From Brevinematales bacterium (GTDB lineage: Bacteria > Spirochaetota > Brevinematia > Brevinematales > Thermospiraceae), in the NCBI GenBank assembly GCA_026417555.1, contig JAOADA010000001.1, forward strand, positions 22,195 to 86,194: a stretch of 64,000 nucleotides of DNA, written 5' to 3'. The notes under the pieces are model-generated. The model made no database searches and was not told the origin of the DNA. It worked only from the letters and a program-made list of their open reading frames with translations. Below, one piece after another: positions 10,495 to 38,026 of the stretch. The number at the start of each line of letters is the position of its first letter. The stretch's first letter is position 1. The translations under genes and the position numbers were made by a program.

Positions 10495-10750
10495 GTTTTC
10501 TTGTGGGAAATCCTTGCCAAATGAAAAAGATCGTGGTTGGTGTGGGCAAATCTCATGACGAGTCACGAGGCTCTTGAAACTCCCTATTCTCATCTTTTCT
10601 CAAAGAAAGGCGATTTTGTAGGAGGCAAAAATTTTGAGCACATGAGAAAACGACTTCCCTGATTGGATTTTTTCTTTGTGGGACCGGCGCAAAGCTTACT
10701 TTCGGAAAAAGTAAAAAACCCGTTTCTTGTGTATATTATGTCCTTAAAAT

Positions 10751-10779
10751 TTGATTTTTTTTCCTTGGTGATTTATACT
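10751..10779 (+). promoter_or_regulatory. Promoter of duplicated unit, copy 1
   Basis: TTGATT (10751-10756) and TATACT (10774-10779) are 17 bases apart, 21 bases before the ATG at 10801. The copy 2 promoter at 13548 has the same -35 box and a consensus -10 box. Confidence 0.75.
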
Positions 10780-10800
10780 CGAGTGGGCGTGGAGGTGTGT

Positions 10801-11955
10801 ATGAAAAAGAGCGTGTTTTTTGTCTTGGTGGGGATAACGAGTTGTCTCTATGCTGTAACAACCAATCTTGTTGTTCAACAGGTCGGGATAGAGGTGATGA
10901 CCTCTCCTGGTTTGGAAAGTCTGGGGCTTTTTCTGGGAGAGGATATCATTGGAAAGTCGGATAGGCAAAGGCTTCGTCTTGTGAGTGCCAAAGAGGATGA
11001 TTTATCTCTTTTGAAAGTGAATCGACTCTCGGCTGTTGTGAAGCTTGTTCTCTTTCAGACAAACCAGCGAATTGGTATGGATGTGATTTTCATGGATTCG
11101 ACTGGGACAAACTTGTTATCTTTGTGGGGAGATTTTTCGCTAACAAATTGGATGAAAGAGATAGGAGTGGTGAGTGCAAAACTTCATAGCGAACTTGTGA
11201 GGCGTTATCCCCCAAAACTTGTTTCTGAGATCAGGACAGTTGAGGTGAGGAAAACCTATTCTCCCTATGAGGTGAGGGGGCATGAGGTTACTTTGGGAGG
11301 AGCTATTGGATACTGTGGTCGGCGGGTACATGGTCATGGTTTTTGGATAAGTGCGGGAAATACAAATGGTCAGGATACGAGGGATGTGATTTCAGGTGGA
11401 GCTCTGGAGGTGGTGGGGCTTTGGCGGTATGGTTTGTGGTATACAGAGATGCAAGTTCATGGTTTTTTTGCTGATGATGTTAATCTTGTCTTTGAGACTC
11501 AAGGAGGGTATGGTTTTTTTGGGGGAGTGGTGAGTCTTTTGGGTGGGGTGCTTCTAAGCTATAATGAACACTATTGGCTTATCACTAATACTGGCGGAGG
11601 AAATAAGGTTTTTGAGTTCTCCACGGTACGGGTTTTGCCCCTTCTTGGGGTGCGGGTGGCTTTCCAGCCTTCGTTCTGGTTTACCGTGGTGGGAGGAGGA
11701 TTGCCGTCGTCAGTTCCCCATACTCTTTGGGCAGAGGGAAAACCGGAGAGTTTTGTTCTTGACTCGATGTTTATACGGGTCCAAACGTATGTACGGTATG
11801 GGAGAAATTGGCTTGTTTTTCTTTCTTGGAAGATGTGGAATAGTGTGCTTCCGTGGAGGGAGGAGGGGTATTTTTCTGGTGATCCTAACTGGTGGGTGCG
11901 GAGTTTTGAAGAGGTTCTTGGTTCGGTCACGATAGGAGGGGCATATGTGTTTTAA
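10801..11955 (+). CDS. Secreted, probable outer-membrane protein A, copy 1
   Basis: I do not recognise a named family. The protein has 384 residues from the ATG at 10801, preceded by GGAGGTG. A signal peptide (MKKSVFFVLVGITSCLYA) is followed by a globular domain to about residue 165. The rest is rich in alternating aromatic and small residues, and the chain ends in phenylalanine (GGAYVF), as outer-membrane barrels do. The paralogue at 13597 is clearly related but has diverged over the first 260 residues, whereas the last 125 are nearly identical. The stop overlaps the next gene by 11 bases. Confidence 0.85.
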   Translation: MKKSVFFVLVGITSCLYAVTTNLVVQQVGIEVMTSPGLESLGLFLGEDIIGKSDRQRLRLVSAKEDDLSLLKVNRLSAVVKLVLFQTNQRIGMDVIFMDSTGTNLLSLWGDFSLTNWMKEIGVVSAKLHSELVRRYPPKLVSEIRTVEVRKTYSPYEVRGHEVTLGGAIGYCGRRVHGHGFWISAGNTNGQDTRDVISGGALEVVGLWRYGLWYTEMQVHGFFADDVNLVFETQGGYGFFGGVVSLLGGVLLSYNEHYWLITNTGGGNKVFEFSTVRVLPLLGVRVAFQPSFWFTVVGGGLPSSVPHTLWAEGKPESFVLDSMFIRVQTYVRYGRNWLVFLSWKMWNSVLPWREEGYFSGDPNWWVRSFEEVLGSVTIGGAYVF

Positions 11956-13225
11956 ATATGTTTTTTTTCTTTGGTTGTGTTTTTGTGGGGTGGCTTTGTG
12001 GGGGGAAGAAAAACAGCGCGTAGGGATAGCAGGTTTTTTAGATATTTCACCCCAGACTGATGAAATTGTTGGGACCATTTTGCAGAATTCTTTGGCGAGT
12101 GTTCTTCAGAAGGATTCAAGGTTTTCTGTGGTGTTTGTTTCTAATGCGGTGACCAATCTTTCCCATGCTCGAGAGAAAGGGATGGAATCCACGCTTGATG
12201 TCATCATCTATGGAACGTATCGCCGAGAAGGGCGAGAGTTTGTAGTGTTAGTGCAGATCTATGATATTCTTGAGAATGAGCTTCGCATGTCTCGTTTGTA
12301 TCGGGGAGAGTATTCGAGAAATATTTTTGATACGGTGGATGCTATAGCGGCGTCGGCGAGTGAGGAAATCAAGCGGGTTCTTCCTGTTTTGGTGACGGAA
12401 GAGGATATTGCGAAAGCCCAGGCCAAACGCAAAGAGATCTATAAATCTCAAGAAGTGAGTCTTAGGCGTGAGATGAGGATAGGGCTTGGGGTCATGAATA
12501 CGAAGAGGGATTTTATGTATGAACAGAGAAGAATTGCACAACAATGGCAGGGAATTTCTCGGGTTTCTGTGCCTTTCTTCTCTTTGAGTATCCGTTTTGA
12601 GATGTTTCGTTTCACATTAGAGAAGATATCACTTCTTTGGCTGCCAATGTGGTATGAGACTCAGGGCAATGGGACATGGTATCAATCGGATGGAAAAAAC
12701 CTTCCTTCTTTAAAAAGTGGAATAATGTTTCATGATGAGATCCGAGGAAGATTTTTTCTCTATGGTGACGTTTTTTGGGGAAGAGTGGGTGGAATTCAAC
12801 CCTTTTTCTCGATTGGGGGATTTGGTGCCGATGGAAAACCTCTTCCCGACATGGAAGAGAATCTTTCTGTTTGGGGTGTGGTGGGGGGAGGAGGGGTGTT
12901 TGCGAAGAATTGGGAGATTGCGTGTCTTGTGCAGGTATGGCCTTTGAGTCAGGGATGGAGAAGTATTCTTAAGGGTTTTGATCCAGATTTCAAAGAGTAT
13001 GACACAAAGAGTACTAATATTTATCAATGGAATATGCCTTTTGTGGGGGTAAAGGGGAGTTATTTCTTGACGCCGAATTTTGGGATAACGCTGAGAACGT
13101 CTTTTATGGAGGTACAAAGAGTTCATCGCTGGTATGATACGGGGGGGGTGGAAGAGCATCTTCTGAAAATGGCCACGACAGATATTTCACTTGAGGTGGT
13201 ATATCGGTTCCAATTTGGGTTTTAG
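11945..13225 (+). CDS. Secreted, probable outer-membrane protein B, copy 1
   Basis: This is a 426-residue exported protein with a signal peptide ending near ALWGEE. Residues 25-150 resemble the TolB/CsgG N-terminal fold: VGIAGF, then a two-residue-spaced strand pattern, then VIIYGTYRREG. The C-terminal 240 residues look like a beta-barrel and end in FQFGF. It is translationally coupled to gene A (11-base overlap). The copy at 14741 differs in only a handful of residues. I infer an envelope complex of A and B, function unknown. The start codon overlaps gene A and is preceded by GGAGG. Confidence 0.85.
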   Translation: MCFKYVFFLWLCFCGVALWGEEKQRVGIAGFLDISPQTDEIVGTILQNSLASVLQKDSRFSVVFVSNAVTNLSHAREKGMESTLDVIIYGTYRREGREFVVLVQIYDILENELRMSRLYRGEYSRNIFDTVDAIAASASEEIKRVLPVLVTEEDIAKAQAKRKEIYKSQEVSLRREMRIGLGVMNTKRDFMYEQRRIAQQWQGISRVSVPFFSLSIRFEMFRFTLEKISLLWLPMWYETQGNGTWYQSDGKNLPSLKSGIMFHDEIRGRFFLYGDVFWGRVGGIQPFFSIGGFGADGKPLPDMEENLSVWGVVGGGGVFAKNWEIACLVQVWPLSQGWRSILKGFDPDFKEYDTKSTNIYQWNMPFVGVKGSYFLTPNFGITLRTSFMEVQRVHRWYDTGGVEEHLLKMATTDISLEVVYRFQFGF

Positions 13226-13277
13226 CCTACCAGTTCTCGGATAGTGGCCTGCAAAACTTCGTTTTTGAAGGGTTTGA
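13222..13277 (-). pseudogene. Remnant of the cheY 3' end
   Basis: The 50 or so bases after copy 1 match the end of the intact cheY (16018 onward) almost exactly, coding KPFKNEVLQATIRELVG and stop. The match ends abruptly near 13277. It is a by-product of the tandem duplication, whose right end lay inside cheY. No start or receiver domain remains. Confidence 0.85.
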
Positions 13278-13547
13278 AGTCCTTATACAGAGAGGGAAAT
13301 ATGCTTTTTCCATGGTGGAGGAAAATTTAACGGACATCACAAAACTTTTTTCATTCTCTGAGGGGATTTTTCCTTTAGAGGCTATTTTTTACTTTTCCTC
13401 TTATGATTATCAAAATTGTCATCGTGAGATTATACACCATGATTTTTAGGGTGTTTTCTTTATGCTTAAAGAAGAAAACATTGGAGGAATGAATGGTTTT
13501 TTCTTAGGAAAAAGTTTATTGGTGGTATGATGCCATGTCTTTAAAAC

Positions 13548-13576
13548 TTGATTTTTTTTCTTTTCTTGTTTATAAT
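13548..13576 (+). promoter_or_regulatory. Promoter of duplicated unit, copy 2
   Basis: TTGATT (13548-13553) and TATAAT (13571-13576) are 17 bases apart. The remainder of the 13,278-13,547 gap is AT-rich, and I see no gene in it. Confidence 0.8.
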
Positions 13577-13596
13577 GCGCATGGAGGGAGGTGTTT

Positions 13597-14751
13597 ATGA
13601 AAAAGAGTGTCTTTTTTTTGTTGGTTGGTGTAGTAAGTAGTGTGTATGCTCTCCAAACAAATCTCGTCGTTCAACAGGTCGGGGTGATGGTGAGGACGTC
13701 TCCAGGTCTGGAAAGTGTTGGACTTTTTTTGGGGGAAGAGATCATTGGAAAATCCGAGAGACAGAGGCTTCGTCTTGTGAGTGCCAGACAGGATGATCTT
13801 TCTCTTTTGAAGATTGACCGACTCTCAGCAGTAGTTATCCTGTCTCTTTTTCAGACGAACCAACGTATTGTGGTAGACGTGGGTTATGTAGATTCTGGAG
13901 GGACCAATGAATTTCCTATGTTTGCTACTTTTTCAGCGACGAATTGGATGAGGGAACTACCCGAGGTGAGTGTGAGGATTCATGCAGAGCTTTTGCGTCG
14001 TTATCCCCCTAAGCAGGTTTCTGAGATCAGGACAGTTGAGGTGAGGAGAGATTATGCTTCCTTTGCTAACAGAGAGAATGAAGGTGTTTTGGTTGGGGCG
14101 ATTGGTTACTCTGGTCGGAGAGTAAAGGGGTATTCTAAGTGGTACAATGCGGGTACTACCAGTTTTCGGGATACGTTGAAGGTAATTTCGGGTGGGGCTT
14201 TTGATGTATTTGGTTTTTTGCGATATGGTATGTGGCGTACGGAGATACACTTCCATGGTTTTTTTGCTCATGGCAATACCCTTCTTCTGGAGCCTCAGGT
14301 GGGATATGATTTTTTTGGAGGAATGGTGAGTCCTTTGGGTGGAGTGCTTTTGTCGTATGATGAGCATTTTTGGTCTATCACTAATACTGGTGGAGAAAAT
14401 AAGGTTTTTGAGTTCTCTACGGTACGGGTTTTGCCCCTTCTTGGGGTGCGGGTGGCTTTCCAGCCTTCGTTCTGGTTTACCGTGGTGGGAGGAGGATTGC
14501 CGTCGTCAGTTTCCCATACTCTTTGGGCAGAGAGAAAACCAGAGACTTTTGTTCTTGACTCGATGTTTATACGGGTCCAAACGTATGTACGGTATGGGAG
14601 AAATTGGCTTGTTTTTCTTTCGTGGAAGATGTGGAATAGTGTGCTTCCGTGGAGGGAAGAGGGGTATTTTTCTGGTGATCCTAACTGGTGGGTGCAGAGT
14701 TTTGAAGAGATTCTTGGTTCGGTCACGATAGGAGGGGCATATGTCTTTTAA
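13597..14751 (+). CDS. Secreted, probable outer-membrane protein A, copy 2
   Basis: This is the paralogue of the gene at 10801, also 384 residues, with signal peptide MKKSVFFLLVGVVSSVYA and a final phenylalanine. The ATG at 13597 follows GGGAGGTG; a GTG two codons earlier is less likely. It differs from copy 1 mainly between residues 20 and 260. From about 14374 the DNA is nearly identical to copy 1. It overlaps the second B gene by 11 bases. I infer surface exposure from the barrel-like C-terminus, and I do not know its function. Confidence 0.85.
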   Translation: MKKSVFFLLVGVVSSVYALQTNLVVQQVGVMVRTSPGLESVGLFLGEEIIGKSERQRLRLVSARQDDLSLLKIDRLSAVVILSLFQTNQRIVVDVGYVDSGGTNEFPMFATFSATNWMRELPEVSVRIHAELLRRYPPKQVSEIRTVEVRRDYASFANRENEGVLVGAIGYSGRRVKGYSKWYNAGTTSFRDTLKVISGGAFDVFGFLRYGMWRTEIHFHGFFAHGNTLLLEPQVGYDFFGGMVSPLGGVLLSYDEHFWSITNTGGENKVFEFSTVRVLPLLGVRVAFQPSFWFTVVGGGLPSSVSHTLWAERKPETFVLDSMFIRVQTYVRYGRNWLVFLSWKMWNSVLPWREEGYFSGDPNWWVQSFEEILGSVTIGGAYVF

Positions 14752-16021
14752 ATATGTTTTTTTTCTTTGGTTGTGTTTTTGTGGGGTGGCTTTGTGGGGG
14801 GAAGAAAAACAGCGCGTAGGGATAGCAGGTTTTTTAGATATTTCACCCCAGACTGATGAAATTGTTGGGACCATTTTGCAGAATTCTTTGGCGAGTGTTC
14901 TTCAGAAGGATTCAAGGTTTTCTGTGGTGTTTGTTTCTAATGCGGTGACCAATCTTTCCCATGCTCGAGAGAAAGGGATGGAATCCACGCTTGATGTCAT
15001 CATCTATGGAACGTATCGCCGAGAAGGGCGAGAGTTTGTAGTGTTAGTGCAGATCTATGATATTCTTGAGAATGAGCTTCGCATGTCTCGTTTGTATCGG
15101 GGAGAGTATTCGAGAAATATTTTTGATACGGTGGATGCTATAGCGGCGTCGGCGAGTGAGGAAATCAAGCGGGTTCTTCCTGTTTTGGTGACGGAAGAGG
15201 ATATTGCGAAAGCCCAGGCCAAACGCAAAGAGATCTATAAATCTCAAGAAGTGAGTCTTAGGCGTGAGATGAGGATAGGGCTTGGGGTCATGAATACGAA
15301 GAGGGATTTTATGTATGAACAGAGAAGAATTGCACAACAATGGCAGGGAATTTCTCGGGTTTCTGTGCCTTTCCTCTCTTTGAGTATCCGTTTTGAGATG
15401 TTTCGTTTCACATTAGAGAAGATATCACTTCTTTGGCTGCCAATGTGGTATGAGACTCAGGGCAATGGGACATGGTATCAATCGGATGGAAAAAACCTTC
15501 CTTCTTTAAAAAGTGGAATAATGTTTCATGATGAGATCCGAGGAAGATTTTTTCTCTATGGTGACGTTTTTTGGGGAAGAGTGGGTGGAATTCAACCCTT
15601 TTTCTCGATTGGGGGATTTGGTGCCGATGGAAAACCTCTTCCCGACATGGAAGAGAATCTTTCTGTTTGGGGTGTGGTGGGGGGAGGAGGGGTATTTGCG
15701 AAGAATTGGGAGATTGCGTGTCTTGTGCAGGTATGGCCTTTGAGTCAGGGATGGAGAAGTATTCTTAAGGGTTTTGATCCAGATTTCAAAGAGTACGCAA
15801 CAAAGAGTACTAATATTTATCAATGGAATACGCCTTTTGTGGGGGTAAAGGGGAGTTATTTCTTGACGCCGAATTTTGGGATAACGCTGAGAACGTCTTT
15901 TATGGAGGTACAAAGAGTTCATCGCTGGTATGATACGTGGGGGTTGGGAGAGCATCTTCTGAAAATGGCCACGACAGATATTTCACTTGAGGTGGTATAT
16001 CGGTTCCAATTTGGGTTTTAG
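14741..16021 (+). CDS. Secreted, probable outer-membrane protein B, copy 2
   Basis: This is a near-perfect copy of the gene at 11945, 426 residues. Visible differences include C2 to S, one F to L in PFFSL, D to A in EYDTKS, M to T in NMPF, and a changed GGVEEH segment near the end. The same signal peptide, TolB/CsgG-like N-terminal region and barrel-like C-terminus are present. Its stop codon overlaps the stop of the convergent cheY by four bases. The close identity points to recent duplication or conversion. Confidence 0.85.
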   Translation: MSFKYVFFLWLCFCGVALWGEEKQRVGIAGFLDISPQTDEIVGTILQNSLASVLQKDSRFSVVFVSNAVTNLSHAREKGMESTLDVIIYGTYRREGREFVVLVQIYDILENELRMSRLYRGEYSRNIFDTVDAIAASASEEIKRVLPVLVTEEDIAKAQAKRKEIYKSQEVSLRREMRIGLGVMNTKRDFMYEQRRIAQQWQGISRVSVPFLSLSIRFEMFRFTLEKISLLWLPMWYETQGNGTWYQSDGKNLPSLKSGIMFHDEIRGRFFLYGDVFWGRVGGIQPFFSIGGFGADGKPLPDMEENLSVWGVVGGGGVFAKNWEIACLVQVWPLSQGWRSILKGFDPDFKEYATKSTNIYQWNTPFVGVKGSYFLTPNFGITLRTSFMEVQRVHRWYDTWGLGEHLLKMATTDISLEVVYRFQFGF

Positions 16022-36500: not shown

Positions 36501-37373
36501 TTACCTGAGGAGTTGCAACACCATCTGGGGTTTCTGATTGGCTTGAGCGAGCATCGCGTTGGCAGCCTGGGTGAGGATCTGGTTCTTGACAAAGAGGGAC
36601 ATTTGCTCTGCCATGTCTGTGTCACGGATTCTGGATTCAGCCGCCTGAAGGTTCTCAAATCCAATCATGAGCCCAACCGAGGTTTTTTCCAGACGGTTTT
36701 GGTAAGCACCGAGGTCAGCACGCTGTTTGTTCACCTTGAGAAGAGCCACGTCGATCATACCGATGGCCATATTGGCCTTGTCGGGTGTACTGAGACTGAT
36801 AAACGAGGCAGTGGCTGCGTTACCGACGGGAGACTTCAGGCCAAGACCTTGAGAGTTCATGGTACCGATGTATGCCCGGATACGCTGGTCCATATTGGGG
36901 CCTACATGGAACCACATAGAAGCCACCACGGTGTTTTCCCCTGTGAAGCGAGCAAACCGACCAGTCAAAAGGTTGAGCCCATTGAATTGGGCGTGGGAAG
37001 CAATACGGTCGATTTCTGCAATCATTTGGGAGACTTCCACCTGGATCATCATACGGTCCTGGGCATCATAGATACCGTTAGCCGCCTGAACTGCTAATTC
37101 TCTGAGACGCTGCAAAATAGCTGCTGTCTCTTCGAGGTAGCCCTCGGCTGTTTGGATCATGGAGATAGCGTCGAGGGTGTTCTGGTTAGCCCGGCGAAGA
37201 CCGCGAATCTGAGAGCGCATCTTCTCGGATACAGCAAGACCAGAAGCATCATCCCCTGCCCGGTTGATTTTCATACCGGACGACAGCTTCTCGATATCCT
37301 TGTCAGCCTCGAGGTTGTTTAGGGTGAGCTGACGGTGAGAGAAAATGGAACTGATGTTGTGGTTGATGATCAT
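36501..37373 (-). CDS. flaB: Flagellin core protein FlaB
   Basis: FlaB is the periplasmic flagellar filament core protein of spirochaetes. The protein has 290 residues from the ATG at 37373, after AAGGAGGATGG. It starts [15 protein letters not shown] and has [21 protein letters not shown] near residue 34, both typical. The C-terminal helix has [19 protein letters not shown] and [20 protein letters not shown]-like ends. There is no variable outer domain, as usual in spirochaetes. Expression is probably controlled by sigma-28 and by CsrA through the leader. Confidence 0.97.
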
Positions 37374-37394
37374 ACCATCCTCCTTGATATGTTC

Positions 37395-37414
37395 TGAAGA
37401 CATCCGTGTCTTCA
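37395..37414 (-). promoter_or_regulatory. CsrA-type hairpin in the flaB leader
   Basis: On the minus strand, TGAAGACA and TGTCTTCA are perfect 8-bp arms closing a CGGA loop. The loop and its flanks read ACACGGATGT, a full match to the CsrA consensus ACANGGANGT. The hairpin lies about 20 bases from the promoter and 20 bases from the ribosome site, which itself has AGGAGGA. Confidence 0.7.
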
Positions 37415-37421
37415 CTGTTAT

Positions 37422-37448
37422 GTTTCGACACAAAAGGGAAAGAGTTTA
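37422..37448 (-). promoter_or_regulatory. Sigma-28 (FliA-type) promoter of flaB
   Basis: On the minus strand, TAAA (37445-37448), a 15-base spacer and GTCGAAAC (37422-37429) match the sigma-28 layout (TAAA-15-GCCGATAA) at the key positions. Confidence 0.72.
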
Positions 37449-37683: not shown

Positions 37684-38026
37684 GGGGGCGAATGGTTTTC
37701 GATTGGAAATGGGAGGTTATAGACTTCAGGCAGGGCTGAAGCAACCCTCAAAACTGCTTCACACAAATAGACGCAGACAATTCTGCTCTCCTGGCTGCGT
37801 AAGTCGGCCAGCCTTCTTAGCTATGGCTCCTCTGCATAGCTAACGGAGGTCAGACACAGGGGATAGGACAGGAAAAGCCGGGGTTCCTGTCTGAGAATAT
37901 CCGGCTCTTTCTAGAAAGGGTGTGTCCTGTTTCCCTTTTTAGAAGAACCTGAAAGCAGGACCAAGCCTGTGGATAAGGTCTATATCATCTCTTTCCAGGA
38001 CGTGGGTTCGATTCCCACCGCCTCCA
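37684..38026 (+). ncRNA. ssrA: Transfer-messenger RNA
   Basis: tmRNA rescues stalled ribosomes. The acceptor stem pairs GGGGGCG (37684-37690) with CGCCTCC (38019-38025), with one G-U pair, and the T-loop is GGTTCGATTCC. The resume codon GCA (37773) follows AAATAGAC, as in other tmRNAs. The reading frame GCA GAC AAT TCT GCT CTC CTG GCT ... codes the tag ADNSALLAA and ends with TAA at 37802. The 3' half has pseudoknot-forming repeats. CCA is not encoded. Length is 343 bases. Confidence 0.93.

Follow-up and report, generated by a model that had tools for sequence, protein, structure and literature searches.

The flagellin gene at the centre of this analysis raises a question of control: is the short leader in front of it, in which a hairpin precedes the ribosome-binding site, a target of the RNA-binding protein CsrA? 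The gene lies in a 64,000-nucleotide stretch of contig C11 (the whole stretch analysed, here called the window) from a Brevinematales-type spirochaete assembly of 2.04 Mb that is 98% complete. Its product is of the flaB type, shares 99-58% identity with 80 spirochaete loci, and starts at an ATG at 37373. The gene and the leader elements that may regulate it are given below in window coordinates.

36501..37373, minus strand: flagellin gene, flaB type, 290 aa (Pfam Flagellin_N 4.9e-39, Flagellin_C 6.7e-25)
37372..37391, minus strand: hairpin 2 (H2), CATATC[AAGGAG]GATGGTAT, with the Shine-Dalgarno sequence (SD) in its loop and the 3' arm reaching into the start codon (fold; covariation)
37378..37387, minus strand: TCAAGGAGGA, SD and putative CsrA site 2 (flaB SD conservation; spacing)
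37395..37414, minus strand: hairpin 1 (H1), TGAAGACA-CGGA-TGTCTTCA, 8-bp stem (fold; covariation over 89 leaders)
37400..37409, minus strand: ACACGGATGT, putative CsrA site 1 by consensus (pattern match; CA-N-GGA-N-G kept in strict hairpins)
37422..37429, minus strand: GTCGAAAC, -10-like box 15 nt 3' of TAAA (sequence; near relatives)
37445..37448, minus strand: TAAA, -35-like box of a sigma-28-type promoter (sequence; near relatives with equal spacing; FliA encoded)

Read 5' to 3' on the minus strand, the leader is TAAA-N15-GTCGAAAC-ATAACAG-TGAAGACA[CGGA]TGTCTTCA-GAACATA-TCAAGGAGGA-TGGT-ATG, and the start of transcription is inferred from the promoter-like boxes. The earlier note had placed a hairpin between a sigma-28 promoter and the SD, and the 10-mer, the promoter-like boxes and the SD are all found where it put them. 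Its assignment of the promoter to sigma-28 agrees with the position of the boxes, with their retention in near relatives (where the -10-like box reads xTCGAAAC or TCCGAAA) and with a FliA encoded in the genome at a score above the curated cut-off. The -10-like box itself matches the sigma-28 consensus GCCGATAA only partially, at 5 of 8 bases. At the Rfam gathering score the leader has no match in the window, where the only matches are a tmRNA gene and tRNAs. The tmRNA gene (37684-38026, plus strand, tag ADNSALLAA) is arranged head to head with flagellin, and roughly 250 bp separate it from the flagellin promoter. Elsewhere in the window (10663-16021, plus strand), a two-gene unit without any Pfam family is duplicated in tandem; its 426-aa proteins are identical at 419 of 426 positions, and each is preceded by a more diverged partner of 430 or 386 aa.

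The first hairpin has the 8-bp stem and consensus-matching CGGA loop that the earlier note had described, running from 37414 to 37395 with zero mismatches in the stem, and its GGA can be drawn in a tetraloop or in an NNGGAN hexaloop. The site ACACGGATGT fits the CsrA pattern ACANGGANGT without a mismatch, and the hairpin-loop GGA, 5' of the SD, fits ACANGGANGU. The 50-nt leader with the start folds at -14.2 kcal/mol (z -3.2; 1 of 200 shuffles equally stable), and a 101-nt segment that includes promoter sequence is unremarkable in stability (z -0.4). We dropped the bare 10-mer as evidence, as the genome shows no enrichment of ACANGGANGT, with 47 occurrences against 56 of the reversed control pattern; two of the 47 places (C11:59594 and C11:19593) sit about 30 nt 5' of flagellin starts.

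Both hairpins are conserved and covary across the spirochaetes, many of the compared loci being from metagenome assemblies. For H1, 89 raw flaB leaders were each trimmed to one set distance from the start codon and then aligned, structure playing no part in their choice or alignment. Over these leaders 81% of the cells of the 8-bp stem are paired, against 28-47% for slid partners, and there are 193 two-sided changes, against 16-61 in the slid controls. Relatives have stems such as GAAGACA/TGTCTTC, AGAAC/GTTCT, CCGGAC/GTCCGG, GCTATC/GATAGC and TGCTAGGC/GCCTAGTA, all of which close loops of the form xGGA or xxGGAx. A strict GGA-loop hairpin occurs in 48 of 78 named spirochaete flaB leaders, in 26 of 3900 shuffles (0.7%) and in none of 112 other genes at the same loci. 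Since shuffles ignore relatedness, we place the main weight on the slid, re-dealt and other-gene controls. In a wider set of 78 strict hairpins the flanks of the GGA are C (95%), A (99%), N, GGA, N and G (95%), a pattern that in sequence is the published CsrA preference. The stem thus varies by compensatory substitution while CA-N-GGA-N-G stays fixed, and the conservation of the loop in relatives, on which the earlier note had made its reading depend, is borne out. Some 40% of named flaB leaders are without a strict H1, including most of the Leptospira type, though csrA is near-universal in the phylum. In one family, two second flagellin paralogues (L059 and L061) have long near-perfect palindromes in place of the GGA hairpin upstream of the start, with loops that hold no GGA (for example CAGTTTCAGACTTAAGTCTGAAACTG).

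The same design recurs in the genome under study. Its second flagellin gene (C11:19631) is preceded by TCCCACA[AGGA]TGTGGGA at an equal distance from the start. The third (leader at C11:20747, L037) has only a partial site, ACAAGGATGG, in which the GGA lies inside the stem and not in the loop; its SD context is AACAAGGAGGGA, and from these sequences the gene may be under weak control.

The second hairpin encloses the SD. In folds of the short leader the SD lies in a loop of the form xxTC[AAGGAG]GAxx, and H2 is weak, with G-U pairs in the window, as it is in many other leaders. A stem of at least 4 bp is nevertheless found in 52% of 150 distinct flagellin leaders, against 15.9% (maximum 24%) when the 3' flanks are re-dealt among the leaders; among 175 other genes whose SD is GGAG the figure is 6.9%. 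The third pair of H2 is mostly A-U in Brevinematales and mostly U-A in other spirochaetes, and H2 scores 0.33 for covariation when the leaders are aligned without gaps, compared with 0.04-0.16 for slid versions. TCA-N-GGAGGA is present at 96% of flaB SDs and at 0% of other GGAGG SDs; we attribute the retention of TC and GA around the flaB SDs to H2 pairing. The second GGA site overlaps the SD (TCAAGGAGGA) and lies 22 nt from the GGA of H1, a spacing also typical of other leaders (median 22, quartiles 22-24, n=78) and within the range of 10-63 nt bridgeable by a CsrA dimer (PMC7652899). The two-site arrangement with the SD as second site, as earlier proposed, is therefore real, and the SD itself sits in the loop of a second conserved, covarying hairpin.

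The genome encodes the proteins that such a leader would call for. The csrA gene (C28:176775) adjoins fliW (C28:176978), 3' of flgN, flgK and flgL, in the order flgN-flgK-flgL-fliW-csrA; the earlier note had named these two genes as a check on its reading, and they stand side by side. CsrA retains the RNA-binding residues R6 and R44 and has as its best solved match the CsrA chain of the FliW-CsrA complex entry 5dmb, and the FliW product matches solved FliW. Among 198 Spirochaetota genomes, csrA occurs in 189 and fliW in 189, in a shared cluster, and eight genomes are without both. One of the eight (G148; 1.7 Mb, 99% complete) also has no flagellin match, a loss of all three together. The others retain flaB hairpins, so their missing csrA and fliW are probably gaps in assembly. 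A coevolution test by csrA loss was uninformative because csrA is near-universal, and only that one 99% complete genome without csrA and fliW also is without flagellin.

We consider it very probable, on sequence and by analogy, that CsrA targets the leader through its two hairpins, with the SD blocked by a bridging dimer and FliW acting as antagonist. Transcription from the FliA (sigma-28) promoter would give a leader of about 45 nt that carries H1 and then the weaker H2. A single CsrA dimer could hold both loops, 22 nt apart, anchored at H1 and covering the SD, and ribosomes would then be blocked from starting flagellin translation. FliW, whose gene lies beside csrA, would bind CsrA and lift the repression, and unexported flagellin would bind FliW and bring the repression back. 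That CsrA binds and represses this leader, and that FliW is the switch, we infer from work in Borrelia, Leptospira, B. subtilis and C. jejuni.

Three other explanations have to be weighed against this one. Highly expressed mRNAs often carry stable 5' hairpins and SD loops, and both hairpins might act alone, H1 by shielding an abundant mRNA from decay at its 5' end and H2 by tuning access to the SD as a structural or temperature-sensitive element, with CsrA uninvolved. The position of H1, no more than about 10 nt from the likely start of the transcript, would suit this, yet the stem varies freely while CA-N-GGA-N-G is retained at 95-100% across the loop and closing pair of the strict hairpins, a constancy that stability does not need. 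The TC and GA beside the SD are likewise kept without better pairing to the 16S tail, and nearly the whole phylum has csrA and fliW; we regard action of the hairpins alone as improbable.

The inverted repeat could instead be a DNA element, either a terminator or attenuator or the operator of a dimeric repressor. A perfect 8-bp repeat directly 3' of a promoter fits either role, as do the palindromes without GGA at the same place in L059 and L061. However, no T run follows the stem, ruling out an intrinsic terminator, and operators conserve sequence, while the arms of this repeat change in compensating ways and the loop alone is fixed, making a DNA element very unlikely. Least likely of all, and close to negligible, is a chance resemblance to the CsrA consensus. 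It would be in keeping with the genomic count of the 10-mer, which is no higher than that of its reversed control, but the site recurs at the same place 5' of flagellin genes in most spirochaetes and almost never elsewhere, and its position and conservation put it far beyond chance.

Taken as a CsrA target, the leader is a further case of an already known design of CsrA-controlled flagellin leader. The earlier note had likened it to the hag leader of B. subtilis; the two sites, one of them at the SD, hold in that comparison, but the closest published match is flaA of C. jejuni. The leader of that gene has two stem-loops with GGA, 21 nt from each other, which were footprinted with CsrA (PMC4894983, Dugar et al. 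2016), and CsrA represses flaA while FliW relieves the repression (PMC4894983). Both are leaders of about 45 nt with two GGA-loop stem-loops, the second over the ribosome site, and about 21-22 nt between the GGAs; both belong to sigma-28 genes and show compensatory changes among relatives. They differ in that Campylobacter is of another phylum and has fliW apart from csrA, and in that binding is proven there and predicted here. The spirochaete H1 also often has a longer stem, and the arrangement stands on several flagellin paralogues and, in Brevinematales, on flgN. The hag leader, compared by its published description, has a pair of CsrA sites, of which one covers the SD (Yakhnin 2007, Mukherjee 2011, as cited in PMC7652899), and B. 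subtilis likewise has fliW adjoining csrA.

Within the spirochaetes, repression of flaB by CsrA is reported from Borrelia (Sze 2011, as cited in PMC3757020). Borrelia burgdorferi offers the same gene in the same phylum, and in the accounts given in PMC3757020 and PMC8668096 its CsrA-Bb blocks translation at a site that covers the SD; it differs in that sigma-28 is absent there (PMC11607428). Gel shifts in Leptospira show CsrA bound to the leader RNA of flaB3 and flaB4, and these leaders have a predicted GGA hexaloop 6-7 nt 5' of the start codon (PMC8668096). In L. interrogans several flaB transcripts rise on csrA overexpression (PMC8668096), and thus the sign of CsrA control can differ. CsrA sites have been predicted near the SD of flaB1 and flaB2 in T. 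denticola (PMC9481697). Both Leptospira and T. denticola share the flgN-flgK-flgL-fliW-csrA cluster (PMC8668096, PMC9481697); Leptospira differs in that one site per leader was considered there, and many Leptospira-type leaders in our set are without H1 near the SD.

The leader design with two CsrA-type hairpins that is proven in Campylobacter thus occurs, with covariation, in most of the sampled flagellin leaders of spirochaetes, a distant phylum whose biology is defined by periplasmic flagella. This supports flagellin homeostasis as an old role of CsrA and FliW. The leader model may also be used to find CsrA targets in spirochaetes, and the specific new prediction is the csrA operon itself in Brevinematales. 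We built the structure model from flaB leaders of the phylum, and its three best places in this genome are flaB1, flaB2 and the flgN leader. The top ranks of flaB1 and flaB2 are expected because both were training sequences; the flgN leader was not in the training set.

C28:181150-181204, minus strand: leader of flgN (L038), first gene of the csrA cluster, with the H1 and SD arrangement behind a CCGATA -10 box

In this genome the flgN leader reads CCGATAG...GACA[AGGA]TGTC...AACC[AAGGAG]GGTT...ATG. In all nine genomes of three Brevinematales families it has a GGA-loop hairpin of 4-7 bp, and in the same nine leaders the GGAG SD is flanked by 2-5 pairs, 18-20 nt separate the GGAs, and the -10 box reads CCGAT. 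The upstream GGA hairpin is absent in four of four genomes of a fourth family. When flgN starts were scanned with the model in clusters from 40 genomes of the phylum, a clear match appeared only within Brevinematales; outside the order the scan covered clusters with an identified flgK, with start codons assigned by script, and almost none had an H1. Because the flgN leader carries the arrangement of H1 and SD, we predict autorepression of flgN-flgK-flgL-fliW-csrA by CsrA, and judge such control of its own cluster in the three families to be somewhat better than an even bet. The E. coli CsrA represses its own translation (PMC7652899), and in a literature search of incomplete coverage we found no report of CsrA autorepression in a FliW-type system. 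The flgN leader as a CsrA target is possibly the one point here that is new. If the prediction is true, CsrA represses both flagellin and the operon that encodes CsrA and its antagonist FliW, an added autoregulatory loop.

Within the order, the model's other matches, scoring under about 28 bits, are mostly without a GGA loop and were judged to be chance matches driven by the SD. A further conserved leader is that of a protein of 97-98 aa (MRIESVGSPPYQQ...) for which we found no Pfam family, at C11:255424-255480 on the plus strand in this genome and at loci L266 and L268. In three of three genomes of the genus it carries AGCAAGGATGCG (AGCAAGGACGCA in one) 5' of TTCAAGGAGGA, a sequence arrangement that makes this gene a possible additional CsrA target.
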